64,000 nt of DNA from Isoetes taiwanensis (Eukaryota > Streptophyta > Lycopodiopsida > Isoetales > Isoetaceae): assembly GCA_021234155.1 (NCBI GenBank), contig JAJEKV010000062.1, positions 5,737,668-5,801,667 on the forward strand, read 5' to 3'. A program made the position numbers and the translations under genes. The first letter of the stretch is position 1. Each line of letters opens with the position of its first letter. Below, piece after piece: positions 2,421-58,597 of this stretch. The notes under the pieces are model-generated. The model was given only the letters and a program-made list of their open reading frames with translations. It had not been told where the DNA came from and ran no database searches.

Positions 2421-2559
2421 TTTATGTTGCTCTTTGGTTTCTAGTTGGTGAATAAAGCTTGGCGTCCTTCAAAAAAACAAGGTCTTTAGCGCGCGGAGGG
2501 TTGCCCCTCCGTGACGAGAAAGTAAAATGGCTTAAATCACACTTCAAAGTCATGTTTTG

Positions 2560-2640: not shown

Positions 2641-2645
2641 ACTCA

Positions 2646-3450: not shown

Positions 3451-3524
3451 GAACCAAATATATAAAATGAACTATTCTTCATATATTTGCTAAAGATTTA
3501 TAAAAAGCAAAGTGTACCCGGCCT

Positions 3525-3600
3525 ATGCTCTCGGCATATCTTTGGCATATACCTGGATATGGCCACAAACCCACATAAACGAGGGCCAACCCAAAAGACT
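3525..3600 (+). repeat. Short interspersed tail repeat, copy B
   Basis: Contains TTGGCATATACCTGGATATG, GCCACAAACCCACATAAACG and AGGGCCAACCCAAAAG. It is related to the blocks at 2560-2640 and 6605-6712. The GC-rich hairpin-like piece seen in the other two is missing here. Confidence 0.55.
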
Positions 3601-3974
3601 ACATTATATATGTTTAAAACCGCCACCAACTATATAGCTTCACCAAAGCGTGATGATAAATGAAATATCATGATTTCTAGACCATATTGAATGTTTATTT
3701 GAATACAAAAGAGACCAATGTATGCAATGAATAGCAAAAAACAAAACATTAAGAAGCTTTGTAGTGTTTTTGAGTTATGGGGAGGCAACAACCGGTTAAC
3801 CAATGTTGAAAGGTACATGGAAGCCAATTTTTCTTACCGTGTATACTCACACAATTATTGTGGAGTATCCCCGCCGCCTTATGGCGTAACAAAGTGGAGG
3901 ACACGTGATAGGCACAAGTTCTACCACGCTCTGGGATCATGGTAATGATAACCCCAAGAACCAACTCCCAAAGC

Positions 3975-4065
3975 TAAACATACACCGGGGTTTGAACCCC
4001 TGACCAAGTGCACATTTATTTTGGCATTACTAGGCCTATACCAACTCACCACACATCCGTTGGGC
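3975..4065 (-). repeat. Possible tRNA-derived SINE head
   Basis: On the minus strand a box-A-like GAGTTGGTATAGGC is followed about 40 nt later by GGTTCAAACCC, a close match to the pol III box B (GGTTCGAANCC). Spacing fits an internal tRNA-type promoter. No full cloverleaf can be drawn, so a SINE or tRNA pseudogene is more likely than a functional tRNA. Confidence 0.35.
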
Positions 4066-4499
4066 AAAACTTTAGCTATACATGCACACTTTGTAGGCAC
4101 AGATTCTTACTTGTTACTAGTCTTTATCATGGGCTGGAGCAAGTTGGAGGTTCAATTTTTCCAACGCATAGCGGGGGTCTCCACCACATATGCCAAAGAA
4201 TATGTGGCATTTAACATCGGGTCCAAAAGTTACAAGACAAAAATAAGATGTAAGATATGTCCACATGAATAAATTTCTAACATTTGTCAACACCAAGGTG
4301 CATTTCGTGAAAGCAGAAGAGCATTTAAGAATTTTTTTCCCTTTTAAGCTCTTATCAAAAAGTCCAGAGAATAGAATAGGAGAAGGGCGATTTAAAACGT
4401 TTTCTCAATGGTGCAATATTTTAAAAGAACTTTATATTGCAAAGTACAGAAATGAGGTTTCTAAGCCCACATGGTAAACACATTCTTTGGAGTTATTCC

Positions 4500-5560
4500 C
4501 AGCCGCATAAGGCTTCGCAGGAAAGAATGACAAACATCCTTCTATACAATTACATAAAATATAAAAGTCTACTCTCCATTGTATGAAAATGTTATTTTAT
4601 TTTGCTTGGAAATATAGGAACCTTTTGAACTTTGCAGCATAAATCATGCCATGAATCTATTCAATCAATCTGCTGTTCATGACATAATACTGCCATCTGG
4701 ATGACTACAATTATGAGATGGTTTAATTCCAAGGGCAAGGATCATTCGTGGGGTGCTATTGATATTCCCATTAGTAGTATATAAAATCATAAATGATCAG
4801 CCATTAACACATGCTCTTTCTGTTCCACCCATAAATAGGAGAAATAGGAGAATTTACCCATAAATCCAAACCAAAATAATAACCTTAATTTTCCATACCA
4901 CTAACCCTTTTGCCACTTATTTACAATAATTTCCACTCATGGGCGCACCATTTTTGCAATCATTATTTGGGAGTCATCCTTAAAGTGTTGTGCGACCTCC
5001 ATGAGTGTGGGAGCCAACTTCATGCATGGCCACACCAAGATGCAGATAACTCAAGCAGAACTACAGCAAATCGAAGTAAAAAAATATTAATTTTAATTCA
5101 TTTACTGAACAGGAAAATCAATATTGGCATTTAGATAAGAAAAGAAACTGCATCTGAGACCAATCAAAATGGCCAGCATAATTGTCTAACAGGAAGATTT
5201 CTTTCCAATGTTTTCAATTCCATCGGTTCATTCACTTGAAAAGTTGGAGCACAGAAAGCAACAATTCTAATACATCGGCTCCAGGTACTTATTTTACTTC
5301 CTTTTCAAACTTTTCGACAAACAATCAATGTTTTATGCAATGTAACTGCTTATGACTAGCTCTATTACGTCCCATATCTATAAAGAGCGAAACCTGGCAG
5401 CACGTTTAACGTTGTCAAAATAGTTTACAACGGGCTCAAAAATGCTTACATTATGCTCTTCAAAGTGCTAAGGAAGGTATCTTTGAAACTCATCTGACTT
5501 TAGCTTCAAAGATCTCTAGGTTAGAAGCATATAATACAACTACACAATGTGAGCCTTAGA
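4500..5560. other. AT-rich stretch without recognisable gene
   Basis: No exon with consensus splice sites and no conserved protein motif is visible on either strand. Confidence 0.45.
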
Positions 5561-16309: not shown

Positions 16310-18060
16310 GATTTAAGTCTTCATTTGTTGCTTCAGAAGATATTATGCTGGCTTTTCATCAAGCAAGATCACATGCATGAGAGTGTTCTATTGGAATATG
16401 AAATCACTAGAAAGGACCACATTTGCACACAACATGCTAGATCCTTGCTCAAAAAATGATCGGTCGGGGAACTCATATTAACTAATAACCATGTTTGCTT
16501 GAAAGCATGGTGTAGAATATAATACCAATGTCAACATTTTATAAGTGGAGGAAGCTTTTTTTATCTGTTGACAGAGTAGCTGAACATGGAAATATTGGGT
16601 CAAAGAAACCAAGATCTCATGCACTCACTATAATGCAATGTTATCTACGTATATAGACGAAAATGCAAAGACTATGCCTTATAGATCAAAAATAACAATG
16701 ACTAGTAAATGGGCATGAGTAGATGGTATGAGGACAAATGCGGAAAGGCTCCCATCTTAACCAAAGAAAATATACATCAGAAGATTGGCGTTAGTGTGAC
16801 AGAGATGACTAGCAAGCATGTATATCCATCCTCATTTTTAAGCAGGTGGAAGAAACACTATTTAAAAGTTGCAATAGTCAAGAGGACTGCATTTTCAAAG
16901 TGTAACAACTATATTGTAATAAAGGAAAAATTGGTTAAGACTAAAGATCTAAGAGAGAGAAGAGAATTGCAAATGGAAAAGAAAGCACACGTGACAGCAC
17001 AGATCTTTTGTAGAAACCTTTACTGGTGATGGAGAGCTTTATCACACCATGCTCATGAGCAAGCCCTTACAATCATTCCAGATAAAATGGACCAGAGAAA
17101 AAATATGGTACCTCGACTAGAGAAATTGGGGAAATTAATATGGAGGAAAAAATGCTTGAAAGTTAGTCTCTCTGGTGCATTAATGCATGGCCATGACATT
17201 GGCACATTAGGTCACTTTTCACTCGATCTATAACCCAATGACTCGAACTTTCATGTTGATTGCTTGAATCATGCATTAAAAACCATGGAGATTGCTTCAG
17301 AAGATAGTGGAGTCATTTAAGAGAAGATCACCTTGACTGCATATGGGAACTACACCTTCATTTGGATGGTTTGAAAACTAAAATAGTCAATGCTACTAAG
17401 AATGATTTTGTAGCTCCATCGAAGCAATCAATACAACCCCGAAAGCTACTTAGGAGACTCTATTTGCAATTAGACAACTGCTCTGGTCAAAACAAAACAG
17501 ATATTTGTTCTCATATTTTTCTTACCTTATTTATTTAGGTCTTTTTGATCAAATATGATGGTTGATTACGACTCTTTTGAGAGTGTAGTTCCACGACACC
17601 AGCACCATATCTTGTGAATGAGGTTCCTAACTGAATATCTTTTGTAAAAGACTATATTCCAGTCAAATCTGAGCATTTGATTGGTCATTTGGAGCTTCTA
17701 TTCTTCGAATGAAGGATGGATGGCCACTCATATATTACAAGGATGAGGCCAGATCATCGAGAATGGCTATCGGAACAAAATTACGAATGTGGAACACAAA
17801 TGACAATGGTTTTTCGACAATACCAAGTGGGTAAGGTTGTTAAGCCATATGGAAGCTTGAAGGATGCAAGTGCATTAAGATCGTCCATTGCAAAGTACAT
17901 AATGCATTTGGCAGTTATCTCTAAGGTTGGTATGAATTCATGGTTTAATGAATACATGAATGAAGTTATTGACTATTGGTCCTCTCAAATGCATGTGCTG
18001 GTTCTCCAATTTGTTTTTAAGGCGTTAAAGAGGTATTTAATCAATGGTTTAACATAAGAT
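16310..18060 (+). pseudogene. DUF7869-type transposase-like gene, decayed
   Basis: Across several frames the order of motifs follows a widespread, uncharacterised eukaryotic transposon protein (DUF7869 type). They are SVLLEYEITRKDHICTQHAR near 16380; GNIGSKKPRSHALTIMQ near 16590; RWKKHYLKVAIVKRTAFSKC and LREREL-like coiled segments (16709-17029); IIPDKMDQRKNMVPRL near 17080; GALMHGHDIGTLGHF; then LQLDNCSGQNK near 17465, which holds the invariant D-N-C/T-xx-N/QNK signature of the catalytic-like core; and DGWPLIYYKDEA near 17715. The usual VGHTHEDID block is lost. Many frameshifts and stops show a dead copy. A second, better preserved member lies at 26.5-29.2 kb on the other strand. Confidence 0.7.
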
Positions 18061-19440: not shown

Positions 19441-20110
19441 TTGCCTTGAGGCAGTATCTTGATGCTTGCTTCCTCAGCAAGCTTTGGGATGCCAGTGCCC
19501 TTGAACATGTCAAGGCAAGACACTACAAATGCCACATAAATCCCACATTGGAGCGAGGCCCGCAATGCTACTTATGTGCCTACTTGCCCATGACAAAGGC
19601 GCGGACTCATTGCCTCCATTAGCGCGGGGAGCACACCATCTTCGAATTGAGACGGGCAGATGGATTGGTGAGCCACGCCAGGACAGGCTCTGTCAATGCT
19701 GCCAAATGGGAGTCATTGAGGATGAATCTCATACTCTTCAAAGTTGCCCAGCATATGATCAAATCCGGATGCACTATCTTTGAGTTGGTCGAGCTTTGGC
19801 CCGGCCGCTACATGTGACATTGAGCCGGCTTAGGTGCGGTCTTTGGGATCCTAACCGAGGAGGTTATGGGCGTGCGAGATCAGTTATGTCCTCGGACACA
19901 CACTTGACATGTATATATACATTTATTTCATGATGATGTATACTTGTACAGTTTGACAGACTGCCACGATTTTCCCTCGAAAACCCTTCGGGGCAGGGGT
20001 TTTTTAACCCGGACAGTAATAAGTTTGTTGTGCTCCTTCTGGGTCCATAGACCGATTGGTCTTAGTGAACGATAAAAATCATTCTTTCTTTCTTTCTTTT
20101 CTCGTAAAGG
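19440..20110 (+). mobile_element. LINE 3' end with C-terminal zinc motif and (TTCT)n tail, copy 1
   Basis: Coding end: HVKARHYKCHINP, then AHHLRIETGRWIGEP, then CQCCQMGVIEDESHTLQSC and PAYDQIR (19529-19783). The C-x2-C...EDExHxLxxC pattern is the zinc-knuckle-like end of an ORF2-type protein after RT. The 3' UTR contains a hairpin TTTTCCCTCGAAAA, a GGGG-TTTTTT block, CCATAGACCGATTGGTCTTAG, and ends GATAAAAATCATTCTTTCTTTC. The same order occurs at 33.9-34.8 kb. The tail is a tetranucleotide repeat rather than poly(A). The element is 5'-truncated. Confidence 0.75.
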
Positions 20111-25857: not shown

Positions 25858-26539
25858 TACAGCATCTTGCATCAATCAATTACCATTACCCTTAGATGTC
25901 GGTTTGTAGCTCTGACGACCGCTCTTGAAGAAGATCTTGCCTTTGGACGACAGAAATCAAGCTGCTCGCGACGTCTGCGACATGCCATAGCTGCCGAGAA
26001 TGCTGGCGCCAGAGTAAAAACGCAACAAAGAAACAGGCAAAATGAACGAAAAATTTTTCCCCAACTATTATATTGTTAGGGTAACATTTTTTGTCCAAAA
26101 TTCCCCCTTATCCCAAAAATGTTACCCTAGTACGACTATATCTCCATTTACGACTATCACATCTCTATCTCTACATAAATAATTTTACTCTCTAATATTT
26201 AGCAAGCTTGCCTAACCGAAGGTGCACCATTTCTTGCAATTCTAAGGTGTCCACATCAATACCAAGATCAGCACACCCACGTCAGTCAAACTTAATTACC
26301 TCCGTTGGATGGCCTTTTTTTTCAATCCACAGCTATAAAAATTGAGAATTTTCTTTGCCAGTGTTCTTTCATCATGCTTGATGATCATTTAACTTTGAGA
26401 GCTCCAGGGCAGACTCAATGCAATTTTTAGATGCAGCCGGTTTCTAGTTGAGCTCTAGATTTGGTGGAAATTTAGGTTTTGCAACAGGTCGTTCCAGTGC
26501 AGACTATTCTAAGATGTCATCCTTCTCAGTTGGAAAAGT

Positions 26540-29213
26540 AATCAGCATACCTTTGGCAATTTCTGTAATATTATATTGAGGCTCATTCCTGCGTCTCGGT
26601 CCGAGGTACATGACTCCTCGTCTTCCTCTACTGCAAGTGCTATTGTAGCATTGCTTGGACCTGCCTGGTGCTGGGTTTGATGGAAGGTGTTAGGCCATTG
26701 AAATGGTTCTTGCAACTGTCTTAGAGCTAGGTTTTGCATAACAATTTTCTATTCAAGAAAGAAATTTCTCCACCACATTCGATCTTCTTCTAAGAAGTAC
26801 TTAAAGCCTGAGGAAATTCCATTTTCAATGGTTTTTAAGGATGTCACTGGGGTACTTTTCTTTTGCTTAGACTCCTTAGGATTTTTGAGAGGAAGTTGCT
26901 CTGCACGTTCTATGAAGCAAGTGTCTTGAATAGATTTAAGGAAGCGCAATCTGGTGGACTCCAGTCCTTAGTTGTGGTGTACTTCTTCCCCTGTAAGAAG
27001 CTTTGTCCATCCTTCAAGTAGAACTTGATGTGATGTTGAAAGGTGAGATCATTCAACTTGTTCACAGCTTGTTCTCTCTCTGAACGTTGAGAGAAAACAA
27101 ACTCACTGAAGTCAACAGTCTCATTAAGAAGCTCAATCACTGGAACGGGAGTGTAAGAATCTTCAATAATTCGAACTAAAGTAGGAAGACAAAAAGCCTT
27201 CTTCCTTCTAAGACGCACAGAAAATCTGCTGAACGTCTGGTCAATCTGATCATGAGTGTGGCCTACAAGTAAGAATTCGAGCTATACTTTTCTAAAGATC
27301 CCTAGCTCCACTAACATGGCACAGTAAGCAAAGAGTGTTTGATTCTTGTTCTCTCTTGCAGTATTGTCAAGTTGCAGGTAGAGCACTGGTGGTAATTGCT
27401 CTTTCTCACACGGGACCTTGTTAAGATTGTAATTGTGAGGTCAGGGTCACCATGCAAGTTTGGATACGTCAAAAATACTTTGCACTTTAGACTTCCTTTG
27501 AAGACCATCCTACAAGGTGGACCTTAACAAAACATTCATCTGGCACATCTTTAGGAATATTCAAAAAATGGGGTAGAGTAGTTTTTTTTAATCCATTCCA
27601 TTAATTACAACAGACATATATTGCAGTGGACGTTCGAGAGCTTTTTTTTCTGTGCTTGGCAAGCTTTCTTCTCTCTGCTGCTTGTTGTTCACGATGTCTG
27701 GCAAGGTTTTATTGCATATTATCTATTGAAGAAATCAGGTCAAAACATTTCTTTAAACAAGTGAGAGAGAAGAGAACTTGGGCTTACTTCTTTCGACCTC
27801 TGTTTTTGCAGATTCCCGTTGACTCTTTAATCATGCACACCTTGAGCAAACAGACATTATATGTCTCCTGGGAATTTTCACAAGACCGAATTCACTTTTC
27901 CGAAGTCTAGTGAAGAGTGAGTGAGAGATGTGCTGAAACTGGCCCTGAATGCAAGTCTCTTTGTATTCGTTGAAGACATCTTTTTTTTGTGATGTTATCT
28001 GTCAAATGATACATGTTGCTGTTAGGCAACTTCTCACATGTTTCTCTAAAATATTTCTCCATCCATGACACAGTAGCAAGGGCATGCATGGTTACAACTC
28101 TTCTTGGTCCACAATGATCATCAATTGCTGGGTTTTTATCCAGTCTTTTGTGTACTCGAGACATTCTGGTGGAACCTAAATGGTGGACAACCATAAAGCA
28201 TTTTTGGCAGACTTCTTCACAGTTAATATAGTGCAAGAAGGTGTTGCGGTTTGGTCTTACATGGTAAGCCAAGTAGGCATTCTGATCTGCCAATGTCATT
28301 GAACTGTAGTTGTCTCTAACTGCTCGTAATTTAGACATGTTAAATTTGTTGATGCAACCCAATGGGCAGCATTTAGTTCTTAAAAGTCTCCTCATTTTGT
28401 GCTCGTCCATAAGGTTTCTTCTTCTTACTGAGGAGGAGCATGCTCTCTTGAACTAAAGTCCACCTTGAATTTCTTGGAGGACTGGCTGAAGAATATGTAA
28501 TCTCGTTGCACCTTGTTGGTGTTTTCATCTTCTGATGAGAGTTCTACTCTAGGGGTGACCATCTCTGCCCTTAGTAGCATGCTTGTAGAGGAAAACAAAC
28601 CATGTGAAGCTATACCTGGATAAGTCGGAGGCACGGTATTAAATGAAGAAGATGGGCCATAAGATGTTGTGCCAGCAAATGTTGTTCCAGCTTCTTCACA
28701 AGGAGTTTGTTCAAACATATCCCTTTACACGGTAGAATTGAATTCGCAAGCCCATGTGTCACCAAGGTTGTGTGAAGAGGAGTAGATCTTTGTGAGGCCA
28801 TCTTCATTTGTAGTAAAAGTCGTGAAGCGGTGGAGAATCTCGCTGATCTTTACGAGCGTCTGCAGCCCTTGTTTGTTCAAGTGAAGAAGGAGAAACTACA
28901 AATGGTTGAGGTAGTCTGTTCCAAAAAACTTGCTGAGATCGAGCCTCTGTAGTTTCGGGGGGTGGAACAAAAGGTGGTGGAAGATTGCTACGTGCAACTG
29001 GTGAGGGAATGAAAGGAGGGGGCAGCCTGTTTCTTACTGGACTTTGGAGAAGGTTGGAAAGGTGGTGGTAGTCTACTAGTTACTGGACTCAGAGTGTCTT
29101 CAAGGAGCAACAAGAGGAGTCGGAGAAGGATTTGCGACACGTATTCCATCTGAAGTAGAGGTACTAGAGGAAACAAAAGGTGGCAGAAGTTTGTTCACGA
29201 CGCGGTTAACCAT
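26540..29213 (-). CDS. DUF7869-type transposase-like gene (frameshifted)
   Basis: The start is probably ATG at 29213 (MVNRVVNKLLPP), followed by a Pro/Ser-rich region to about 28430. Then comes TKCCPLGCINKF (28370), NRNTFLHYINCEEVCQKCF, RVHKRLDKNP and MHALATVSWMEKYFRETCEKLP, then LTDNITKK and, in another frame, DVFNEYKE. A C-terminal core follows near 27390: LYLQLDNTARENKNQ, then FLLVGHTHDQIDQTFSRFS near 27240. The LDNxxxxNKN and VGHTHxxID motifs are the hallmarks of DUF7869-type proteins of eukaryotic DNA transposons, thought to have an RNase H-like fold. Frame changes include an A8 run at 27978-27985 that would read on as A7. A TAG lies just before the VGHTH block. It is divergent from, and probably partner to, the methyltransferase gene starting at about 30.1 kb. 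Confidence 0.7.
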
Positions 29214-30085
29214 CTTAAACAACTGCAAAACAATGGAGACATGTAAGTAATTCAGTGGACAGTTGTGCAATTGCTATTCGAGAATACAAAAAGCTATTCC
29301 AGTGTTTGGTGTGATGCATTTGCTGTGTGAGTGCATGAAACCTACTCCAGAATACACTAGTACAGCCCGTCTGGACAAGTCGTATTCCACTTTACATAGA
29401 AAAAGAGAGCGAACCATAGTCTACCTTTAAAAAGGAAAATTAAGCGCCTCAGTTGTGTATTCTGGTTTCACAGCTTCAGTCGCCAGAGCGAGGGCCTTCT
29501 ATCCTAATCACATTTGCTGTATTCCGGATTACATAGCGAAAATCATGGACAGGTAAGCATGTGAAGTACATAGTACGTCTTTTAGATCTGTTAGATTTTA
29601 CTTCTTATTCCAGAATAAGCATTTAGAACTTTATGATGGGCTAAAGTGTATTCCGGAATACACTTTGCCTTTTGTCTTTAGGCGAAGTGTATTCTGGAAT
29701 AAACTTTGCCTTTTGTATTTAGACGAAGTGTATTCTGGAATACACTTCGCCTAAAGACAAAAGGCAAAGTGTATTCCGGAATACACTTTGCTTAAGCTAA
29801 AGGGCAAAGTGTACACTTTGCCTAAACACAAAAGGCCAAAGTGTATTCCGGAATACAGTTTGCGTAAAGACAAACGACAATGTGTATTCCGCAATAAGAA
29901 TTTAGTAGCTTTGGTTAACTTAGTCCTTGTTTTTGTTAGTTTTTAGCCTTTAACAATCCCTTTCTTGTTAGTTTGGCACACAAAAAAGCATTCTGGCTGT
30001 TTTTTCTTCTTTTTGCCCGCATTTAACACACAAATTAGCAATTGTTATTCTGGAATACATTTTTCTTCCTTTTTTTACTCTTGAC
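29214..30085. promoter_or_regulatory. Divergent spacer packed with TATTCCGGAATA palindromes
   Basis: The spacer between the two divergent element genes carries perfect 16-bp palindromes TGTATTCCGGAATACA at 29647, 29770 and 29842. Two of them extend to longer palindromes (29643-29666, 24 bp; 29764-29791, 28 bp). Variants with CTGG or CAGG centres are at 29604, 29685, 29724 and 30044, and others are near 29275, 29345, 29383, 29456, 29520 and 29882. At 29804-29821 the arms GCAAAGTGT/ACACTTTGC are joined without the ATTCCGGAAT core. Such density between two promoters suggests binding sites for the element's own protein(s), but this is inference. Confidence 0.75.
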
Positions 30086-30089
30086 AGAC

Positions 30090-33000
30090 TTGTTTGAAAC
30101 ATTACTTTGGCAGACAAGAAGGAAGCAAGAGGGCACCAAAGAAAGTGCTCAAGCTTGTCAAACAGCCACACCCACAGACAAAGTCGCAGGACACTGAGGA
30201 GCCTGCGATTTACGAGAACTTCCAAACCCAGTGGTTTATAACCAGAGGTGCAGGTGGAAAATATAGCACATTGACGTTTCTCCATGTCTGTAAAAGCCCT
30301 GGACAAAAACGCTATGACGACACCGAGTTCGTCAACCTCGGAACAATCAAAGATGTTTCTGAGGTTGCCGGTCAAGATGATTAAGTGGGGAGGCTTTCTT
30401 TCAAGACCTCCCAGGGTTTCATTGTGGTTGACATTGCATTTTTTAGAATCGTCAGTGTGCGAACAGAAATATTGTACAAGTATATCTCACATTACCGGAA
30501 ACAAAGCTTATCATTAGGAAGGTTTGTTTCAGTCACAGCGAGGACTTTTCTGTTAGCGAGTCCGAGCATGAGAAAGAAGAAAGTGGGTCACCTGTTGCTA
30601 GCACTTCTGGGCAGGACAAGGAGGATGGAAGCTCAGAGGAAGAGGAAGAGGTGCAACCCAAAAAACTTAGCACGCCAAGAGACACCATCGCTGCTAAGGA
30701 ACCAAAGAAAAGGAAGGTACAGCCGCTCGATATAATGGAACTCCTCGAGGAAAGCACAAAGAAAAGGAAAGGAAACGGAAAAGCACCCGAGGTAGCAATA
30801 AGAGAGAAGAAAATAGATAAAACCTCCGAAAGAATGGAGGCAATGAACAGGGAGAAGTTTGTGCAACGGGTCATATCTTCCAATAACTTGCATGAAACTA
30901 CCCCCTAAAAATGAAGTTGGTGAAAGACCATGTCAGGTTCGAAAAATCTACGCAGATCATCTGAGGAACCTGAAAGACAGAATAAAGAGCAATCCAAATG
31001 CTCATGTGGCCCCAATAGTTGTCCTCATTGACGGGAGCGATTATAGACCCCAAGACTATGACAGGGGAAAATGCAGATACTTACACACATTATGTCTTGG
31101 GAGGTAATCACAGCTTGAAGGCAAGAAGGCAACTCTATAAGGAAAATAAGAACCCAGGGTACCTCTCCGTCTGTGTGCTGTTTACTGTGGTCTTACCGAT
31201 GAAGAAGCAAAGATCGTTGCCAACACCCACAATGCTGACAACGAGTACAAATTGAAGATGAGCTTCATCGACAAGATCAGGTTCATGGACGGAGAATATA
31301 TTATTCTTAAGGAAAACTATGGTAAGGACCTAAAGAAGCCAGCATACTCCTTGGAGCTTAAGGAGGCATACGCTATTGAATGCTGCCTAAAATATGATGA
31401 AGCTAACAAAAGGCAGTCACTCATTGGCCGCAAGGCACAGACGATCCATATTCCAGAATAAGAAGTCATGCCAAAGTTTTTTTTAGCATTTTCGTGTTTG
31501 ATTGTACTTGTCCACAAAGTGACGTACAATTTTCCTGAATAGATATGGGAACTCCAGAATGAAATATTCACTATGTTCGAAGGGGGGGGGAAGTTGAAGA
31601 GCAAAGGCAAGGAGACAGCCAAGAAGAAAACCTCCAACATGCCGAAGAAAGAAATGACAATTATTGTCCGGGGAAATGCGAGGGGCTTTTCCGACACCGA
31701 AGCTACTACTAAAGGTACGCCCCCTTGAAGGTTGTCGACAAGGAGTTTACCCTTGAAGAAATGTCCAAGGAATTGCACAAGTAAGTTCTTCGTCAAGATT
31801 AACTATTTGGTTGTTGTAGATCTAGTAGCAGCGGTGTATTCTGGAACACATTATGTTGTGTTATTGTGTAAACTTTGTATTCCGGAATACACATGCTTTA
31901 TTGTAGTCCAGCAATGTCAACAATGTTCTTTACTAATTTGTATTCCGGAATACACGTTCGAGCTTTTAAAACTTAAAATATATGTTTCAGAACAAACACT
32001 CACTCACACGACAAAACAAAATAGTATTTCGAAATACACAATCATTTCCTTGAAGCAGCACATTTCTTTTCAAGATAGCAACTCTGGGGAGCGGTTGTGT
32101 ATTCCGGAATACAACTTGCTTTACTGTGTAATGTTTTTCTTGTGCCTTGTTATGTTTTTCTTGTTTCCTAACAGAGTATTTTTCTTATTGTCTTGCAGCC
32201 AAAAAGAACGTCATAACGTGTCAAATATGTTTGATGGAGCGGTTGAGCGTGGAGACACAGGGACGGATGCAAGGAGCTCTACCCTATTGCTACCTCCGAC
32301 GAGCGCATTGTACAATATGCTCTAAATTTTGAGGGCTAGGTAAGTTTGCTCATATTATTTCCTCTCAAGCCGCGATGTGTTAATGGTTGCAGTTTTTCTT
32401 CCTCTTCTGAGCAAGAAAAAAAATAAAGATCTTCAGGGGCTTCATGCACTTGGTTAGAACTACAGGAAGAGAGGTGGATTAGCGGAAGGGAGGATCGTCG
32501 ATGCAAAACCTTCCGACTATGAAAGATTTTGCATGTTTGATCAAAACAACTGTTTTTCGATCATTCATGGCGATTACACAAAATTGGTCGAGCGATGAAG
32601 CCGCAAGACTTCATGTTGGTACTACTGCGACCTACCCTCGGCTTCAAGCTAAAAGATACCGTTATGGCGGACCAGCCCTTTTAAATTTCCGAGTTCAATG
32701 CGTTTATTGATGGCATCAAGCGATCTAACGGTTAAGCATTGGCATCTTGTTGTGTTCCATTCTAGCATGCAGGCTAGCATGTTGGAATCCGCTTTTAAAA
32801 ACTACTTCGGTTCCCCAGTTCAGGCAGGATATGAAAACCTGGTCTGGTAAGTCTTATTCCAGTTCTCTTTCTAGTCTTTGTTTATGCTAACCTCTTCAAT
32901 AAGGTTTCGTATTCTGGAATAGGATTACTTTAGTTCTAGTTTTCAAATTGTTTTCTTGTTTTTCATTTTTGTGCTAACTGCACTTCAAATATTTTACTAG

Positions 33001-33670
33001 ATACAAAACGAACATCAATTATCATGGTGGAGGACTAAGGTTGCTCAGCAAGGTAGAGTATCTCCATGTTGCTTACTGGAGTTTTGACGGGAAGAGAACT
33101 ATGGAGCACTTCAACACTGCCGCCTGCCAAAATGTTTTGAATGTCTTAGAGTTTCCAGCGGTCTTACAGAAACTGCAAGACCCAAGTGCACAAGGCAGGA
33201 TAGTGAATCGCTATCAGAAACGACAAAAGCTCATTAACCATCTCCTGGACATGTTCTCGCGTCCAGGAGATTGGGTGCTTGATGCTTTTTCTGGCTCTGG
33301 TACTACCATTGCTTGTGCACTTAAGAAGGGCCGCAACTGTGTAGCCGTGGACATTGACAAGGAGGCTGTAAATTTTGTGAGGATGAGACTGGCTGCCTTA
33401 CCTACTTTACCAGATGAAAATCAAGAGTTAGGGGCCAAGTCTTTATCTGATTATGCTAAGCTAACGTCCTCAGAGATACAGCCTCCTTTCACAAGCTCAC
33501 TAGACGACGAGGCCACTTTTACAGAGCTGAAAGAAGTAGCTCTAGCTACTATTCCAGAGGACAAGGAAGAAGCAAAAGATGATAAGTCTCCAAGGAAGGA
33601 GCAGACGACAGAGAAAGATAGTGCTGAGACAAGCAAGAAAAATGATGAGGATTATGATATAGATCTTTGA
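30090..33670 (+). CDS. ParB-like plus N6/N4 DNA methyltransferase gene of a putative transposon
   Basis: The domains appear in order. An N-terminal block (30094-30383) has no known family. A Lys/Glu-rich linker with nuclear-localisation-like KKRKVQ follows (about 30540-30905). A ParB/Spo0J-like domain lies at 30910-31460: ADHLRNLKDRI, THYVLGGNHSLKARRQL, GLTDEEAKIVANTHNAD, SFIDKIR. A linker follows to 31790. Then a methyltransferase of beta-type order: GDYTKLVER near 32570, a degenerate DPPY-like DLPS near 32625, FHSSMQASMLESAFKNYFG, and VLDAFSGSGTTIACALKKGR plus VAVDIDKEAVNF (33270-33390), the SAM-binding motif. An acidic/Lys tail ends at TGA 33668-33670. Introns: 31790-32198, 32340-32436, 32847-33000. 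Several frame changes, some at homopolymers (C5 at 30900, T3 at 31189). Such fusions are typical of bacteria and phages. Confidence 0.72.
31860..32115. repeat. Intronic cluster of the TGTATTCCGGAATACA palindrome
   Basis: Three further perfect 16-bp copies lie at 31876-31891, 31939-31954 and 32098-32113, inside the methyltransferase intron 31790-32198. There is a TTCGAA-centred version, GTATTTCGAAATAC, at 32024-32037 and a degenerate copy at 31834. The exons themselves hold almost none (one at 31448), so the motif is confined to noncoding DNA of this locus. Confidence 0.85.
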
Positions 33671-33879
33671 CTTTTTTCATGCTAAATTATTTATTATTTA
33701 CTACAATGTACTGCCAATATTGATGTACTGAGTTTTATTAAAAAAATAAAATTATTTTTTCTTTCCTATTTTGGTGTTTTTTATGTCTTAATTTCAGTCT
33801 TTTCAAATTCATGTCTAAATTTTGCCCCTTTTTTTTAATTTTCTTTCTACAAATACAAAGTTATCACCTAATGCCGCTT

Positions 33880-34775
33880 CAGCGGGCAGCCCTTGATAGA
33901 CACATCGTCTATTTTCAGAAAGTGGTTACTATGGGTGATGCTCGGCTCCCTTTTGCGACTGCTTGTGGCAATGGGTCCCTTGGTCCGGGCTGGCTTAGGA
34001 GCTGTTGGAGGGGTAAGAGAGATCGATGGTTAGCCCGGATGGAGCGTCGCGAGAACCTGCAGTCGCGTCTTGGTGGACCGCAAGGCCGATCGTGGCGGCC
34101 TAGCGGGAGTACCTAGGCGCTTGTTTCCTTGGCAAGCTCACGGGACCCGGCTCTAGAAGCGGTCAAAGCGGCCCATTACAAGGAGCACATCAACCCGTGT
34201 TATCCGGGGCCCCAGTCTCTGCGTTCCCGGCTTGCCCGCCAAAAGCGGACTCATTGCCTCCATTCGCGCAGGTGCCCACCATCTTACCGCTCCGAGGCGA
34301 GGCGGTGGATTGGGGAGCCCGCCGGGGCGGGCTCTGTCGGTCTTTGTCAAGCGGGTGCCATTGAGGATGAGTCTCACACTTTCCCGAGTTGCGGATCACG
34401 GCTCCCTTAGTGCGGTAGGACTTGCCCCTTACATTTCTTTGATGAACACACCGCCGTCCGATGCGTGCCACAGGTCGCGTTACATTGAGGTCTTGGACCT
34501 GCGAGGTCACCTTTGCCCCGCTTTGCTGGCGCCGCTTCGATTAGGCACTACGGTGCGGTGCATGACCTGTATATATTTGGGTGTTTTTCGCATTTTATAT
34601 GTTAGGACGGTTTGTCGTGGCCGATTCTTTGCCACGGTTTTCCCTCGAAAACCCTTCGGGGCGGGGTTTTTTAATCCGGGCAGTAATCCGCTTGCTGCGT
34701 TTTTGTATTGGGTCCCATAGACCGATTGGTCTCCGTGGACGATAAAAGTACCTTCCTTCCTTCCTTCACCTTGCT
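33880..34775 (+). mobile_element. LINE 3' end with (TTCC)n tail, copy 2
   Basis: Coding end in broken frames: DRWLARMERRENLQSRLGG, then DPALEAVKAAHYKEHINP, THCLH, RRWIGEP and AIEDESHTFPSC (33950-34410). This is the same C-terminal region as in the copy at 19.4-20.1 kb. The 3' UTR has the same hairpin GGTTTTCCCTCGAAAACC, GGCGGGGTTTTTTAATCCGG and CCCATAGACCGATTGGTCTC, and ends GATAAAAGTACCTTCCTTCC. The copy is richer in G+C and thus possibly younger than copy 1. It lies about 200 bp after the methyltransferase stop codon. Confidence 0.75.
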
Positions 34776-41359: not shown

Positions 41360-42412
41360 ATGAGCGCAGCTCTCACACATGATATAGAACACATTCAAAG
41401 GCTATGGGAGTGCCTAAAATGTGCCAAACAATGGCTTGCAATAGCCAATGATCAAATTGTGGACTCTCCTTTTGAACAAGGGTCTACATCTCATGCATTA
41501 TCATTTGTTAATCCAGGTGTGACTGATGACAGTGTCTCAATGGTTGGAGATATGAAAGACATGCCAAGCAAGCAGTCATGTCATTTTAAAGAAGAATTTT
41601 ATGGAAGCCAATAAGAAGATGGCAGCCCATACCTTCAAAGAGAGACCAAATCGAGGAGCCACTAGATCTGGTCAGATTGGTTATTTGAGTGCAAAGGCCA
41701 TGGAAGCAATGGAATCAGAAAAGTTAAGCAATAAGAGATCTCGAGGATACTTGGCTTTTTCTATTCCTCAAGAAGAAGAACCTCTTACTTTTCAAGATGC
41801 ACTCAATCATCCGAGTGCAGCAGATTGGAAGAAAGCCATAGACCTTGAATATGAGTCTCTCATGAAGAATCAAACATGGGAACTAGCTGTTCTTCCACCT
41901 GGAAGAAATCTTGTGAGTAGAAAGTGGTTATTTATATTAAAGAAGAATGCAATTAGACAAGTGGAACAATACAAGGCGAGATTTATTGCGAGAGGATTTT
42001 CTCAAATTGCCAGTGTTGATTTCACGAAGACATTCTCTTCAATAGTACATATGACTTTAATCCGTGTTCTTTTAGTTATGCAGCTCATACGAACCTAGGA
42101 GTCCACCAAATGGATGTTTGCACGACATTCTTACATGGAGATCTAAAAAGGAGATTTGCATTTCTTAACCTGAAGGCTATGAAGTGGCTGGGCAAGAACA
42201 CCTGGCATGTAAGCCGAAGAAGGTTCTATATAGTCTTAAACAATCCCCTGAAGCATGGTATGACTGTATTAATGGTTATTTGCTAGCTTTGGGATTTCAT
42301 AATGCTCATGCTTATAATAATGTTTATGTGCAAACTGTAGGAGAATTCTTTAAAGAACAACTGTATCAGAAAAATAGACAGCATAATCAACCACACACAT
42401 CAACCTTCATTT
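41360..42412 (+). pseudogene. Ty1/copia pol fragment (end of integrase region to RT)
   Basis: The clearest frame (41601-42098) reads EEEPLTFQDALNHPSAADW, then EYESLMKNQTWELAVLPPGR, VSRKWLFILK, YKARFIARGFSQ and VDFTKTFSSI, the opening blocks of the copia reverse transcriptase. After a frame change, HQMDVCTTFLHGDL (near 42105) and KPKKVLYSLKQSPEAWY (42200-42260) follow. The DD pair of the YVDDM motif, RNase H and LTRs are absent. Frameshifts and truncation mark a relic. Confidence 0.85.
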
Positions 42413-47513: not shown

Positions 47514-50500
47514 TGAAGATTCTTAGTTGGAATCTAAGAGGTATTAAAGGACCTTTGAAAAGAAGGAGGCCATTGCTCAAATTAGACAAGATGATGTCGA
47601 CATTATAATGCTTGAGAGCTCAAACTACCTAAGTTTGAAGCTTCTAATTTGGGAGACCGGATTTACCCAGTCCTCATCAATCTGGATTGAAGCTAATGGT
47701 ACTAAAGGTGGAATGGCCATCATTTGGAAAAACCTCGCATCATGTCTCCTACCGCAATAGTCTCTCTAAAATGTGGCGTCTGTCACTTTCTCTGTGAACA
47801 ACACATCCTTTGGTGTTATAAATGTCTATGCCTCCACCGTCCAAAGGAGAGGGGAAAATCTTTGGCCTAATATTAGCTCTGGATCACTCAAAATTCCTCT
47901 GCTGACTTGGATTCTAGCGGGGGACTTTAATAATACCCCTACTTGGGATATGAAATTGGGAAATAAAATCAATATGTCTGCATGACAGAAAGGGGGAGAT
48001 GGAATAATCTTATCTCTGATTCATCTCTCATTCACATTCCTTCTTCTACCTCTGTTTATACTTGGTCTAATAAACAAAAAAAAATCTTGATAGAGTGTTC
48101 TCGGCCTTGGATAGATTTTTATGTCTCAATCCAAACTCTGATTTTTGGGATAATTGCTATGTCATAAGTGATGAAGGCACTTCAATCTCGGACCATCAGC
48201 CCCAATTTCTCTGTACCAAGCATTTGCTTAATCCCCCAAGGGAGAGAAATATCCCCTTCAAATTTAATTGTTCTCTCCTTCAAAACAACTCTTTTCATGA
48301 AGAGTTCTCTAATTTCTACAGGTCCCTTGGCTCTATGCTTCCTAATACTTCCATGAAAAATTTCTATTCCAAAATAAAAAAGGCTAAAGAGTGGATAAAG
48401 GTTTGGGCAAAAAACAAAAATAAGACCAAAATTCAGGAAAAAGAAAATCTTCTCCATAAGATGAAAGATGTGAGATCCCTGCTGCAAATTGACCCTTATA
48501 ATTCTAGCCTTCACATAGCAGAGGAATTAATTGAGAGGCATCTTAAATCCATAGAGGAAAAGGAGGCTAGATTCTCTCGCTATAAAATGTAAAATCAAAT
48601 ACAATAGTGAGATTGACCATGGGAGCTCTAAATTTTTCTTCCGAGTTGCAAAGTCCAGACTTCTCAAGAACTCCATAAGTCATGTAATTAATGGCTCTGG
48701 CACTTCCCTCAGTTCGAGTCATGAGATCAAGAAGTATTTTTATGACAGTTACTCTATGCTTTTCAGGGGGAATGATCTCACTGCCACTGATATTATTAAC
48801 AGAGATAAATTTCTGGCTAGGTTGGACTCCATTCTTCCAAATACTATTGATTCTATGGATATCTCTCTAACTGCAGTGCCTGGGGAAGAGGAAATTCTTA
48901 AAACCCTTTTGAGCTTCTCCAAGAACAAATCTCCTGGTCCCTGGTTTTCCCCGAATTCTATTCTCAGTGCAGGACATTATGAAATCTGATATTATTGGCT
49001 TTGTTCATGGATTTTGGAATTCTGAGCATTTGCACTCCTCCATTTCTGCTGGTTTCATTACTCTTGTGCCAAAGGTGGATAATCCTACTTCCTTCAATGA
49101 ATGGAGACCAATCTCTCTCACCAATTCTTCTTACAAACTCTGTGCCAAAATTATTGCTAGAAGAATCCAGGCTTTTCTCCAGAAAAATATAAGTATCAAC
49201 CAATCTGCATTTCTTCCAAACAGATTTATCCTAGATAATTATATTAGTGCTATGGAAGGATTGCATTGGAATAGGATCTCCCATCAATCTTGCATTCTGC
49301 TTAAACTAGATTTTAAGAGAGCTTTTGATACTGTTAGCTGGGATTTCATTGACATTGCTCTCAAAAAAATGGGGTTTCACTCTAAGCTCATATCTCTTAT
49401 TCATGGTCTAAATTCCATGTCCAACTCTGCTGTCCTGATCAATGGATCTCCTTCAAATTTCTTCCCCTTGGCAAGAGGTGTTAGACAAGGTTGCCCATTG
49501 GCCCCTTACCTTTTTCTCATTATTGCTGAAATGCTCACGAGATGTGTTCTCCATATGCAAAATTCTGGACTGTTAACTGGTTTATCTCTTCCCAATAACT
49601 TGGATATGCTTACAATTTCCCAGTATGCTGATGACACTTTTGTATTCTTGGATTCCAATCCCAATAATATCAATACCTTTCTAGATCTTCTCAAGGAGTT
49701 CTCTGACAAAGATCGTGTGTTCATCTCAATATTGATAAAAGTAAGATCATAGGTGATGTCACTCGATCTTATATTTGTGATATTCAAGTTCTCAATCCTA
49801 ATCAAGCTTCCAAATTATTAGGTATGCCTCTCTCTCTAAGTCCAAACTTAAAGGGCCTTTGGGATCCTATCCCGAAAAAATCAAAAGGAAACCCGAATAA
49901 TTATAGGAATTGCCTATCTTTTGCGGGGAGGACAATCATTGCAAACTTCGGTTTTAGCTTCATCTCATGTATACTTTTCTTCCGCTCTAATTGCTCCTAA
50001 AACAATTTACTCCGAAATGGAAAAGGTTATTAGAAATTTCATCCGAATGGTTCACATTTGGTTAATTGGAATTACGTCTCCGTGCCTAAAAATTTGGGGG
50101 TCTTGGTCAAAACATCTTCATCTTCGGGCTTGTTCTCCGGCGAGGGAAATATATTTGGAGAACTATCATGGGAAATAATTCTGCCGCATCTCGGTTCGAA
50201 AATCGGCTTAATTGCTCCCACCCTACCGGACATTCCTCTATTAAGCATTCCCTTCCTCAATGCGCTTTTGTGGACATTCACCCTGCCCTAATACTTCTCC
50301 TCGATGAAAATCTAATAATGGCCTGGAATAAAATTCATCCCGCGGTTCAGAGATAATGTTCTTCAAGCCACTATGAACACCGATCTTTTTGGTCACCAAT
50401 CTTCTTTGATCAGTTTTCTAATACTATGGCCATTAAGCATCCTAAGATTTACGAAAAATGGTCTAATAAAGGGATCATCGCTATAAAAGATCTTTACAGA

Positions 50501-53069: not shown

Positions 53070-54060
53070 AAATACGAGAAATTCCCTCCTATGGCAACTC
53101 CATCACCAAGGAATGGCCCTCCGCCTGACTCGGACCACTTGTGATGGCCAAGTGTCTGGGTGAAGGACACAGAGGTGTCATTCGTCCCATGCCTTCTATG
53201 GAAATCCTATATAGCGGAAGCATACATACATGTTAGCACCTGAAAACAATACCATTAAATAGGGTGGCCCATCATCATCATTATAACTAACAACAAAATA
53301 CCACGATAACAAAGGAAATGCACCATAAATAAGGGCTCTACCCTGGGCTCAGACTCATGGGGGTCAACTGACAGTCAAAGCCTCTAGATAACAACAGACA
53401 TAAGTATAATATGGTGTTGGCTGGTATAGAACAATGGCTAGGGTAGTCCATTCCATCTGTCCCTCCTGTGCACACTTTGTGTAGATAGGGTCAAACATGC
53501 TATGGCGTATTATAGCCTTCCTGGAGATGCAATCACATGGAATTTCCCTATGAGACTACTCCAGGTTACATCTCCTGGGTCCGATGAGGCAGGTCAGGGA
53601 GGCGTCTCCTCCCCGGGCATGATGGATTCCTAGATGTTCTAGAGGACACGTGCCACATCAGCAGCCCCCACATCCGTACACGACTTACTCCCCTAAATCT
53701 AAAGGCCGGTTCACTGTGCCTGTTCGAGCCTAGAACGTCCATATAGCACTCATCCTGCGACCCAGGGAGTGTCAGACCCATACCCGGCCCTCTTCAGTGA
53801 CTGACTATAAGCCTAGCACACTATAGGAATCCTGTAGCCTAGCTAGGCAAGATCCCACTCCCGTTTAACCATCATACCCGTTAACTGGTGCCGAATCACA
53901 ACATAGCATCCACAATCATGTGGGCTCTTGTGCACAGGTCGCATTTACTGGGTTTTAAGGGTTCTTACTATGAATATCTCCACTTCTAGTGGCCTTTAGG
54001 TCTCTACCCCCCTTTTACCCATACAACACAGGAGGAACAGAAAGAGAACATTCATATCTG
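53070..54060. other. Stretch without recognised gene
   Basis: Short frames only. No LTR ends, tRNA or conserved motif could be recognised. It may be internal or LTR sequence of an unidentified element. Confidence 0.35.
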
Positions 54061-54065
54061 ATTCT

Positions 54066-54994
54066 GGGAAAGGACTCGCGAGAGACACAAAACCGGATAG
54101 ATAGGCTTGTCATTCATCACAGCAGCAGTATACAATGTATAAGAAGAGAGAGGGGTAGCCGAACATAGGAACAATATCGGACTACCCCAAAAAAAGAAAA
54201 TGTGCTAAGGCATGATAAGAGGGCAATGGCGACAAGTTCTCATCGGGATAAAAAACCCCGCCCTTTCGGGTTTTCGAGGAAAACCCTAATGAGAAATGGT
54301 CGCCACCAACCTCGAATGTGTTGCCTAGAGAACGAGAAAACCGGACGAGCGCGAAGGCAAACCGAAAGCACGACCCCAAACAACCGCTAAAACCCCATGT
54401 AACAACGAGGATGACGAACGGAAACCAAAGCCAGGACCCCCAAAAGCCGGTGGAAGATAGCGAAATCAGAAGACCAAAACTCAAAAAACACCAGAAAGAG
54501 TCGAGAAACAAGCCTAGCCATAAAAAGAATCCGCGATCAAGAAAGCCGAAGAGATAAGGCATAAAAATCGATTTAAAAAGAGCGTAACAAAAAGATAGCG
54601 CCACCGGCAAAGGTGGAAAAGCATCACCCAAATGGTGGAAAACATGATATATAAAGATGCATCACCCTCAAGGTGGAAATAAACAAAGATCGCCGCAAGC
54701 GGAGAAAAACACAGAAAATGCCAAGGAAACAAAGAACAAGGCAAAAGCGACACCCACAAGTGAAAACCACAAAAAGAGCAAGGACCAATACTAATACAAA
54801 TGAAAAGACGCATACACGCCACGCAGGGGGGGTGGGAAGGGGGAAGCTACGAGCACGAAGAAAATGCTATCAGAGAAGACCCATAACCGCCCCGAAATGG
54901 AACTAGCCTAATATTGCCCTTTCCTTAATGGCGATCCGATGGCTCCTGATCGATGGGATTCTCGGGAAAGGACTCGCGAGAGACACAAAACCGG
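54066..54994. repeat. 31-bp perfect direct repeat, 898 bp apart
   Basis: GGGAAAGGACTCGCGAGAGA followed by CACAAAACCGG is identical at 54066-54096 and 54964-54994. Flanks differ after the repeat. Between them, at 54250-54290, lies the reverse complement of the LINE 3' hairpin block (GGGTTTTCC-TCGAAAACCC with GGGCGGGGTTTTTT), pointing to a minus-oriented third copy of that 3' end. Confidence 0.85.
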
Positions 54995-56159
54995 CCGACT
55001 ACCAAAGGACTTCCTTAACTATAAACCCAGTATGGCGAAACCTCCGTGTGTTGAGTAGGGTCGCAAAGACATTTGTGTGGAAGGAAGAGTGGAGAGAGCC
55101 AAGACGACAAAGAAGGTGAATCAAAATCAAATCGAAATCCAAAGCGCAAGATAGAACTCCAAGTCAAGAATGAGGAGAAGTGCCCCAACCCCTCCTCGCA
55201 TCCAAACCCGGAGATACCGCAAAAAAACATCGAAGGAGCACTACTAGATCATGACAGAAGAGGTTGTAGACTAGGTAAAGTGATTCGGATTAAAAATAAA
55301 AGCTAGGGGCCATATATAGGGTCCGAAATACTAAAGCAAAAGACAATAGTGGACATGATAAAGGAACCAAAAACGTAATGACAATCGGAAGGGACATGAT
55401 AGAAAAATAAGAACGCTGTTGAAATGTAAAATATAACAGAAATCCGAATGATAGGGCCGAATGAATGTGCATGATCTGGCGGCGGCAAGTCGCACAACAA
55501 CTCAAATCGATGTGAGCTTTTAGTAATGAGGAAATCAACAATACATGAAAAGAGAGATAGCATCACCCGGAGGGTGGAGAAAAGCGCCACCCAAATGGGT
55601 GGAAGAAAAACCAGATAAATACAAATTCGCGCCCCCATCGGGGGGGAAAGAAACAACGCCACCCACAAAAAATAGTCCAAGAGAAACTCATGTCACAAAA
55701 TTGCAAAAAACGCAATATCTGGCACATCTAATCATAGCGAAATAGCAAATATGATAAATAATAATAGCACAATGCACGATGATATCCCAATACACTGTGA
55801 ACAAAGAGCTCAACGGTTAGCTAGAAATGTATGCCCTGACAAATGATGCATAAGGATAGCATAATGCACAATGCACAATGATAGCACAATGTACAGTGAA
55901 AAAAAGATCTCAACAACCAGCTAGAAAGGAATTCCCCAAGACAACTAGAATGCGACAAGACGAGCACCCCCCATGGATGTGTCTAGGAAGTTCTTATATG
56001 AATGCAAATCACGGATGCATGTCCGTGGAGGTTTTTCGCATCTGAATACAGATCACGGACTGAAGTCCATGCATGTGTAGCCCGACACATAGACAATAAG
56101 ACAAAGAAGAAACTCAACCTAGGGCAATGTGTAAGCTGTATATACAAAATATTCAAATC

Positions 56160-56490
56160 CAAGTATAAGTCCGAACCCAAATACATAATACACATATAAG
56201 AAATGTAGCTACAACGAACAAGAGGTGGAAAACAGGTCGCAAAATACTTTAACTTCAAGAACAGAGAATGCAACTTCATGAAGCAACAAAATAATTGCGC
56301 TAACACAGTGAACAAAGGAATCAACAAACACTAAAGCTCCGGGATGATCATGCCAAAAAAGAAGAAAAAACTTAAACGCAACCCAAATACTCCACTCCAC
56401 GTATAGTTCCAAAACCAAATACATAATACACATATAAGAAATGTAGCCACAAAGGACAAAGAGCTGGAAAACATGTCGCAAAATACTTGA
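56160..56490. repeat. 90-bp direct repeat, offset about 237 bp
   Basis: CCAAATACATAATACACATA, AAGAAATGTAGC and TCGCAAAATACTT are found in both 56175-56250 and 56412-56490, with small differences. Confidence 0.85.
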
Positions 56491-56549
56491 ATGGGATAGA
56501 AAAGGACTCAAAAATTTTAACCGAACGAAAGGGGGAAGGAGGAGAGGAG

Positions 56550-56658
<109 letters not shown>

Positions 56659-58597
56659 TTCTGGAGGCAAACCCGAGAAGAGGAAGTCCGATGTCGCTAT
56701 GATGAGCCCGAAGGGATCAAAGTGGGCCAAGTTGACAAAGGAGTGGAGATGGTGATGGGTAGGACAAATGGTGGAAGGAAAAGTGGAGAGAGCAAAGACA
56801 GAGCAAGGTGAATCAAAGGCAAATCGAAATTCCAAGCGCAAGATAGAACTCCAAGTCTAGAATGAGGAGAAGTGCGCTAACCCCCCCACAAGATCCAAAC
56901 AGAGATACCGCCAGCATCACAAGATGGATAGATAGATAGAAAAATAAGAATGCCCGCTGAAATGTAGAATATATAAAAGGACGCCGAATCATAGGGTCAA
57001 TGAATGTGCACGACTGAAGCCGGCAAGTCGCACAACAACAAGCACTCAAATCGATGTGAGCCATTAGTAACGAGGAAAATCAATAATACATGAAAAAGAG
57101 AAGAGAGCATCACCCGAGGGGGTGGAGAAAAGCCGCACCCACGGGTGGAAGAAAACCATGATAAATAGAAATGTGTGTCCCCATCGTGGTGGAAAGAAAC
57201 AAAGACCACCCACAAAAAAATAGGGAACAACCACCAAAATTGAGACTTATTCCAAAGTCATGTAAACACTAAAATGCGATATCGATCGATAAAACCACAT
57301 ATACAAACTCAAACCAAACAAGATAATGTATGAAAGGAACATGAAATTCAATATGTAAACAAACTAAGATAGATCATCTGATAGAAGCCGTAACATCCCA
57401 AGATAAGGTACCCTTTATTGCGCACTTTTGAGGCATAGGGAGAAGTAAAACTTTTAACTAACAATACGCTTAAAGTTGGCGTATGTTCAATATTGCCCAC
57501 AAAAACAACTCAACAAAGGAAGATGACCTTCCCTAAAATGAGAAGACCGCTATCAAAATAGATCACGGAATGCAACATAGGGATAATAGCAAGGGAAACC
57601 ACAAGAGTGACGAAAACCTAAGGTGCCGAGATGAAAAGGACAAGAGATGTAGAATAATATGCCATAAGGACCAGAATCGCCCCATATTCAAAAAAAAGCA
57701 ATATACACATGCAAAAATACACCTCATGGAAAAAATGCATTAATTATCAAGGAAACCCATGCAAATGCACCCATAAGTTCAAAAAGCCAAAGCTCTCCCA
57801 TTATCCTAAAGAAATTCCCACCAATGGGAAAGAAACATGTCTAGACAAATTGATTATGTAACAAGATGAATCTTAACAAATGACCCCAAAATATGACGCT
57901 AAGGAGTACGAAATGAAATGCACATGGGAGCAAATGCAAAGAAATAGGAAACATGTGAAAACCACATTTGCACAATGAAAAATGCCGAGGTCTATCCAGA
58001 TGTGCCAAGCTAGAAACCCGCCAAGAGAAGTTACCTTAATTGTATGTGAGTAATGTGTTCAACCTCAAAAGCTAAAATGAGAATGAACCGAAGAGAATAA
58101 AAGAGCACCACAAGATTAGAAATCTAACATTGGCAAATCCCAAATGTCAGAAGGCAGGTGAAGTTGACAAAAAGGCAACATAAGCTGTAGACACGAGAAA
58201 AAAGGAAAATAAAAATAAAATAAAGATGTGCTCCAAAGAGCAAAGACCACAAAAAGGCCAGAGTAACAAAACGCAATGCCATAGTGCAAAAAGGATAAGA
58301 AATGTAGGGTGTAAATAGAAGATCAAATATGAAAGAAACAAGATGGACTAAACGGACGAAATGAATATGGGTATGCATATAGTAGAATAGAGGAATTCAT
58401 AAACAAAAAGTTGAAGGATGCGATGCCAAGCACGTAAATAATACCAATATAAATCCCCATAAGTAAAGAGGAATATGTGATGAATGAAAGCTCTAAGGAA
58501 AAATGAACAAAAGGAGAAAGGACAAGCGAGAGCCCGAAAGACGGACATGGAGAAGGCAATAAAATGAGATTGGGATGGCAAAGGAGGTCGGAGAAAT

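Follow-up and report, generated by a model that had tools for sequence, protein, structure and literature searches.

The DNA analyzed here, hereafter the window, is a stretch of 64,000 nucleotides from Isoetes taiwanensis (contig JAJEKV010000062.1, positions 5,737,668 to 5,801,667). It harbors the remnant of a transposon with two genes that diverge from one spacer, a DUF7869 transposase-like gene on the minus strand and a gene for a ParB-like/DNA methylase protein on the plus strand. This arrangement had been proposed in a sequence-only reading of the window, and Pfam searches and frame readings confirmed both the motifs quoted there and the divergent orientation. The main new content of the present work is a palindrome within the element, which is a candidate recognition site.

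The window copy aligns to other genomic copies from approximately position 26,515 up to 33,873, while complete copies without inserts have a length of 8.1-8.5 kilobases (kb). In three-frame readings, the plus-strand gene is interrupted by a stop codon at 30,382, and its frame shifts near 30,905, 31,107 and 31,150. The minus-strand gene contains several stops and shifts and terminates at approximately 26,516, so that it lacks the C-terminal portion present in its nearest relative. A search of the window for the terminal repeat at up to three mismatches detected neither end. Both genes are pseudogenes, and because both are broken and neither terminal repeat is present, the window copy is a dead fossil of a many-copy transposon. 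The case was therefore built on relatives within the same genome.

The assembly searched comprises 1.658 gigabases in 1,110 contigs. A first look yielded 3,596 candidates for the methylase exon and 6,241 for DUF7869. The best 150 of each were scored (methylase exon: all with an expectation value (E) of 1.3e-103 or better), so that the copy numbers are lower bounds of at least 150 for each gene. Many copies of the methylase gene hold stops or frameshifts. Twenty methylase copies, a non-random selection picked for few stops, were taken with 10 kb covering the upstream side. In 16 of them, a DUF7869 gene or a piece of it was found upstream on the opposite strand (in L030 only the N-terminal part). 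Copy L037 possesses a DUF7869 piece in the same orientation as the methylase, and no DUF7869 was detected within the stretch fetched for L033, L039 and L040. Coordinates of the best 150 matches of each gene gave 37 DUF7869/methylase pairs at most 25 kb apart, the window itself included and one methylase match counted in two pairs. All 37 pairs are divergent, and 27 show a spacing of 5.2-6.4 kb; the chance expectation was 0.14 within 10 kb on one side.

Homology breaks off sharply approximately 330-355 base pairs (bp) past the methylase stop (15 of the 20 copies have a recognized right end), and on the left, as read from the alignments, its limit lies approximately 360-385 bp outside the DUF7869 match. 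Of the 13 copies with both flanks covered, seven have two recognized ends and the remaining six lack a recognizable end. All seven are bordered by perfect 4-bp target duplications, each of a different sequence (CTAG, CCAC, TGAA, GCTA, TTCA, TTCT and TGTG), and their inverted ends of approximately 25 bp are identical at 20-21 of 25 positions. Six of the elements measure 8,087-8,462 bp and one 10,187 bp. Because the inverted ends and the 4-bp duplications enclose both genes in all seven copies, the two genes are almost certainly carried by a single cut-and-paste DNA transposon. The sequence-only reading, which had placed both genes in one transposon, is thus supported on this point, and the terminal inverted repeats and target duplications it called for, missing from the window, exist in every testable genomic copy.

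The 4-bp target duplication in seven of seven copies, a length of approximately 2-9 kb (some Sola elements are larger) and terminal inverted repeats of at least 11 bp agree with the description of Sola1 elements. The accessible part of PMC10741241 describes the Sola superfamily as transposons with 4-bp target duplications and a DDD transposase, mostly 2-9 kb in size and present in moss. The label Sola-like is used here on account of such structural features, duplications and size among them, and not of sequence comparison with Sola references.

Copy L021 is approximately 91-98% alike to L035 or L036 in the transposase core (2,400-4,800) and approximately 60-81% alike from the N-terminal part of the transposase onward. 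Joining of the same transposase half to old, diverged methylase halves indicates module exchange between subfamilies. A similar composition, near-identical transposase halves joined to unlike accessory halves, is outlined for Sola2-Fanzor chimeras in the available text of PMC3627910, where the accessory part is a Fanzor protein instead of a methylase.

Properties of the two proteins

The DUF7869 domain (PF25273) was identified at 26,910-27,281 on the minus strand with an E of 3.5e-19, and of 5.2e-41 when a pieced reading was used. In copy L021, a proline-rich stretch similar to that of the window runs unbroken into the open reading frame (ORF) of the DUF7869 N-terminus. Among the matches listed, the closest DUF7869 proteins are 70-73% identical and are encoded by a 3.5-kb contig, while the nearest ones from named organisms include proteins of Ceratopteris, Riccia and Adiantum. 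The predicted architecture of a fern relative comprises a transposase core of the RNase H-like type, in which acidic positions are conserved, and after it a BAH-like domain. In the DUF7869 protein P0011, the latter domain is predicted near the C-terminal side (residues ~682-797) and resembles the plant histone readers EBS/SHL. A Foldseek search returned nothing at an E of 0.001 or below. According to these models, the minus-strand gene probably encodes the transposase of the element, and its BAH-like domain could read host chromatin.

Many of the 120 DUF7869 relatives listed stem from the liverwort Riccia sorocarpa. Single relatives bear extra domains, namely rve (P0053, Adiantum), Peptidase_C48 (P0091, Branchiostoma) and a glycosyl hydrolase (P0087, Riccia, named cellulase). 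Elsewhere in the genome, a DUF7869 stretch (G000:C927:71693-72061, minus strand) is 99% identical to that of the window, whereas the other copies listed reach 89-91% at best. To judge from this identity, it may have arisen by recent duplication or represent a haplotype that was not merged.

For the plus-strand product, profile searches gave a clear result in the C-terminal part. N6_N4_Mtase (PF01555) was matched at 32,978-33,670 on the plus strand (E 6e-15) and in all three genomic copies scanned (best E 2.6e-18). The ParB-like fold postulated by the sequence-only reading stands less firmly. Its motif stretch is present, split over frames, but the region (~30,900-31,460) had no Pfam match in the window or in the three copies scanned, and no PDB sequence match to ParB. 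The NCBIfam ParB model TIGR03764 was matched with an E of 5.4e-5 to 1.3e-4 in three of three uninterrupted copies, which is far below the curated cut-off; the pieced window reading gave 0.0014 and the other pieced readings 2.8e-5 and 3.9e-5.

The best solved relative of the methylase is CcrM, which was aligned across its residues 15-275 and thus over the whole domain (E 9.7e-9). As in CcrM-like beta-class N6-adenine methylases, motif IV (DLPY) precedes motif I (FSGSGTT); DLPY is kept in 18 of the 20 other copies. The enzyme is probably a beta-class N6-adenine methylase. Since CcrM modifies adenine and motif IV reads DLPY, N6-adenine is a better guess than N4-cytosine.

Selection was assessed by the ratio of nonsynonymous to synonymous substitutions (dN/dS) within and between three subfamilies (A, B and C), which were grouped by eye; sequences with an unrecognized frame were dropped beforehand. 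For the methylase exon (19 of 21 sequences), the median dN/dS was 0.04-0.06 between subfamilies, where dS is near 2 and close to saturation, and 0.07-0.36 within subfamilies. For the ParB core (six of 21 sequences), a dN of 0.05-0.07 was determined between subfamilies, with dS saturated, and values of 0.17-0.20 within them (four pairs). The low dN/dS of the methylase exon, together with the low dN at saturated dS of the ParB core, argues for long selection for a working protein; by this measure, both parts are under purifying selection. The DUF7869 gene yielded 1.10 for the single B-B pair and 0.21-0.32 for the other groups (seven of 21 copies with a recognized frame).

Only two methylases (P0001 and P0002) were recovered when a protein collection was searched with a pieced ParB-methylase query, and an alignment of three copies of the protein retrieved no relative from the protein database; the search needs shared words of five residues, which makes absence from it a weak negative. 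With respect to the origin of the gene, a viral source was considered and rejected: viral contigs were scanned twice for relatives and gave none. Among 50,697 phage records, 12 showed weak matches to the methylase exon, with a coverage of 55% and an identity of 29% in the best case. A protein of an archaeal virus that bears a partition-related annotation was rejected as a relative, as it matched the methylase part alone.

Palindromic sites in the methylase half

At up to three mismatches, the window contains 13 sites of the 16-bp palindrome TGTATTCCGGAATACA (core TATTCYRGAATA), compared to 0.27 expected, all of them at 29,518-32,113. Each of the 20 fetched loci contains 6-19 sites, in total 247 versus 2-3 in shuffles. 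At the same threshold, none was detected in the 32,334 bp that make up the left end and the transposase half of 10 copies. The left flank (22,870 bp, 11 loci), the region between the methylase stop and the right end (5,219 bp, 15 copies) and the right flank (17,221 bp) were also devoid of them. The palindromes are restricted to the divergent spacer and the putative introns of the methylase gene. In 18 of 21 loci (L037, L039 and L040 were left out of this count and of the spacing test), 219 matches were located in 43,869 bp outside the translated matches versus 15 in 88,996 bp inside. Of the latter, 13 lie at 9.18-9.25 kb and two at 7.79-7.85 kb, where the translated matches cross putative introns suggested by splice signals.

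Most neighboring sites follow each other at steps of 41 or 42 bp. In 113 pairs of such neighbors, 1.7% of the core positions differ, compared to 39% for the ten flanking bases on each side; this comparison favors the core because the sites were chosen by similarity. This applies less to the last intron, outside the arrays, where two cores are 97% conserved versus 72.5% for the other intron columns (p 5e-8; 21 sequences of three subfamilies). The test was confined to columns filled by 18 or more letters, namely 20 of the cores and 75 others in addition to the centers, and neither columns nor copies are independent. In a count without a preset motif, TATTCCGGAATA was the commonest 12-bp palindrome of the methylase half (93 of 147). 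The central CG is frequently replaced by TG or CA while the core stays; such changes are the usual trace of the decay of 5-methylcytosine (5mC). A common helical phase of all sites was considered and rejected, since the spacings outside the 41-42-bp arrays are without helical phase (p 0.65). We read the conserved palindromes as the footprint of a candidate protein-binding site.

Bacterial ParB proteins bind clustered parS-type palindromes of 14-16 bp. The element resembles these systems by its clustered palindromes and a ParB-like domain that may bind them, and differs from them in that no partition genes were seen.

Possible function of the ParB-methylase and rival explanations

A ParB-methylase gene opposite a transposase gene is an architecture of a known kind, because it has been published for the Ectocarpus element Sola1-1_Ec32 (PMC12477816). 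According to the available excerpt, this element carries a ParB-like/methyltransferase accessory gene on the strand opposite its Sola1 transposase, with ParB-like and N6-adenine/N4-cytosine methylase domains as in Isoetes, and its product was proposed to bind and modify its own transposon. The idea of self-binding and self-modification is thus already in print. The same excerpt cites green and red algal transposons with this domain pair (Iyer et al. 2011; Bostrychia genome 2025). By contrast to the plant element of 8.1-8.5 kb, Sola1-1_Ec32 has a size of 21.5 kb and stems from a brown alga; the two were compared by description only. The accessible text on Sola1-1_Ec32 names no candidate binding site in repeated copies, whereas the Isoetes element possesses the palindromes. 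Element-encoded DNA methylases are also known from retrotransposons with captured methyltransferases (PMC5890265), which, as far as the part available tells, are of the C5 type and come with no mention of a ParB part.

Based on the data on genes, ends and palindromes, the following scheme is proposed. The element is almost certainly a cut-and-paste transposon, Sola-like in type, of approximately 8.3 kb with imperfect inverted ends of approximately 25 bp and 4-bp target duplications, whose plus-strand gene gives rise to an accessory protein comprising a ParB-like domain and a beta-class DNA methylase. The ParB-like part may recognize the 16-bp palindromes in the divergent promoter and in the introns of its own gene, and arrays with steps of 41-42 bp (approximately four helical turns) might recruit several molecules to the same face of the helix. 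The methylase would then mark the element, probably on adenine, and by this either keep the promoter usable or label the copy as self. That the ParB-methylase uses the palindromes to find and mark its own element is the best reading of the sites, at about even chances, and we lean slightly towards the scheme as a whole. Confinement of the palindromes to the methylase half makes self-marking more plausible. An extended version, in which parS-like arrays form a self-recognition center that nucleates a spreading ParB-like protein, this protein writes N6-methyladenine (6mA) and keeps both genes active against host 5mC silencing, and the BAH domain of the transposase reads the resulting chromatin, is tentative and rather unlikely.

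Other explanations of the palindromes have to be considered. The DUF7869 transposase or a host transcription factor might bind them as enhancer or repressor sites while the ParB-methylase works elsewhere. The position of the palindromes around the shared promoter would suit this, and repeated internal motifs are bound by transposases of other families. On the other hand, the palindromes fill the introns of the methylase gene, and at up to three mismatches there is none in the transposase half or beside either end, where a transposase must bind. A host factor is still compatible with this distribution; altogether, we regard binding by either protein as doubtful. Less probable still is an action at the RNA level, in which palindrome copies in the methylase pre-mRNA would pair mutually and steer splicing. 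Self-complementary copies would be able to pair, many are intronic, and in the last intron they directly follow the donor site. However, several sites are located in the spacer, ahead of the presumed first exon (exon 1 is deduced and its boundary unsure), and the steps of 41-42 bp fit a DNA-bound protein at least equally well.

Two further explanations concern the genes themselves. The broken reading frames of many copies would agree with a methylase that is captured cargo without function for the element, but the values between subfamilies (a median dN/dS of 0.04-0.06 for the methylase exon and, for the ParB core, a dN of 0.05-0.07 at saturated dS) make this very improbable. That the pair consists of two unrelated neighbor genes or of two nested elements might be concluded from the window alone, which shows no element ends. 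This explanation is refuted for the copies tested and otherwise hardly deserves credence: divergent pairs recur throughout this genome, the genes lying adjacent in the same order, and because a single pair of ends with 4-bp duplications encloses both genes in all seven testable copies, the separate ends in the spacer that unrelated neighbors would imply are not what was found.

Self-marking by methylase-bearing transposons has been proposed before, without a named recognized site in the text available of PMC12477816, and no published candidate recognition site for ParB-methylase transposons was found in the literature searched, to which subscription papers mostly did not belong. With a methylase exon found in at least 150 scored copies, two domains under selection and a conserved palindrome confined to part of the element, a concrete DNA target is now available, by which the idea becomes testable. 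If true, the element may represent an adenine-marking, counter-silencing system in plants, in which doubt has been cast on the presence of 6mA (PMC12695648, as far as accessible).

Features of the window copy and its surroundings

Table 1. Features of the element remnant in the window
Feature	Position	Strand	Basis or remark
Transposon remnant, both ends lost	26516..33873	.	Homology limits versus other copies; no terminal-repeat match
Broken transposase-like gene of the DUF7869 type, with stops and frameshifts and without the C-terminal part, where most of the BAH-like domain is expected	26516..28720	-	PF25273; alignment to relatives (P0003/P0004)
Putative proline-rich N-terminal stretch of the DUF7869 gene	28804..29210	-	Reading frames; comparison with copy L021
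Divergent spacer (presumed promoter of both genes) containing degenerate sites of the palindrome	29211..29545	.	
Palindrome site just 5' of the presumed start codon	29518..29533	.	1 mismatch
ParB-like/DNA methylase gene, broken, introns and start putative	29545..33670	+	Other copies read through the same exons
Intron 1 palindrome array	29647..30059		Sites 29647, 29688, 29729, 29770, 29842, 29883, 30044; mostly 41-bp steps
ParB-like domain (VLGGNHSLKAR, GLTDEEAK, NTHN), split over frames	30900..31460	+	
Palindrome cluster in later intron	31835..32113		Sites 31835, 31876, 31939, 32023, 32098
Methylase motif IV region, out of frame in the window	32600..32645	+	
Palindrome site in last intron	32908..32923		4 mismatches to the 16-mer, core intact; footprint in other copies
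Last exon with methylase motif I (DAFSGSGTT) and acidic tail	33002..33670	+	PF01555

The right break of the element is adjoined by a G+C-rich stretch (33874-34770) that looks organelle-like; similar DNA is located at 19601-20096 (75-81% identity, two pieces). A second, distant DUF7869 relic was detected at 16751-17290 on the plus strand. Its best match is a mussel protein (approximately 30% identity), and no methylase gene was found nearby. A match at 14.2 kb that might have been a second copy of the methylase was dismissed as chance (33% identity, E 0.76). An Rfam scan gave nothing at gathering scores. Over the 7 kb of region 54001-61000, the AT skew is strong, with values per kb between 0.40 and 0.50. 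Two reverse-transcriptase ORFs on the plus strand, at 48913-49752 and 41556-42098, resemble by eye a plant L1-type long interspersed nuclear element and Copia, respectively.

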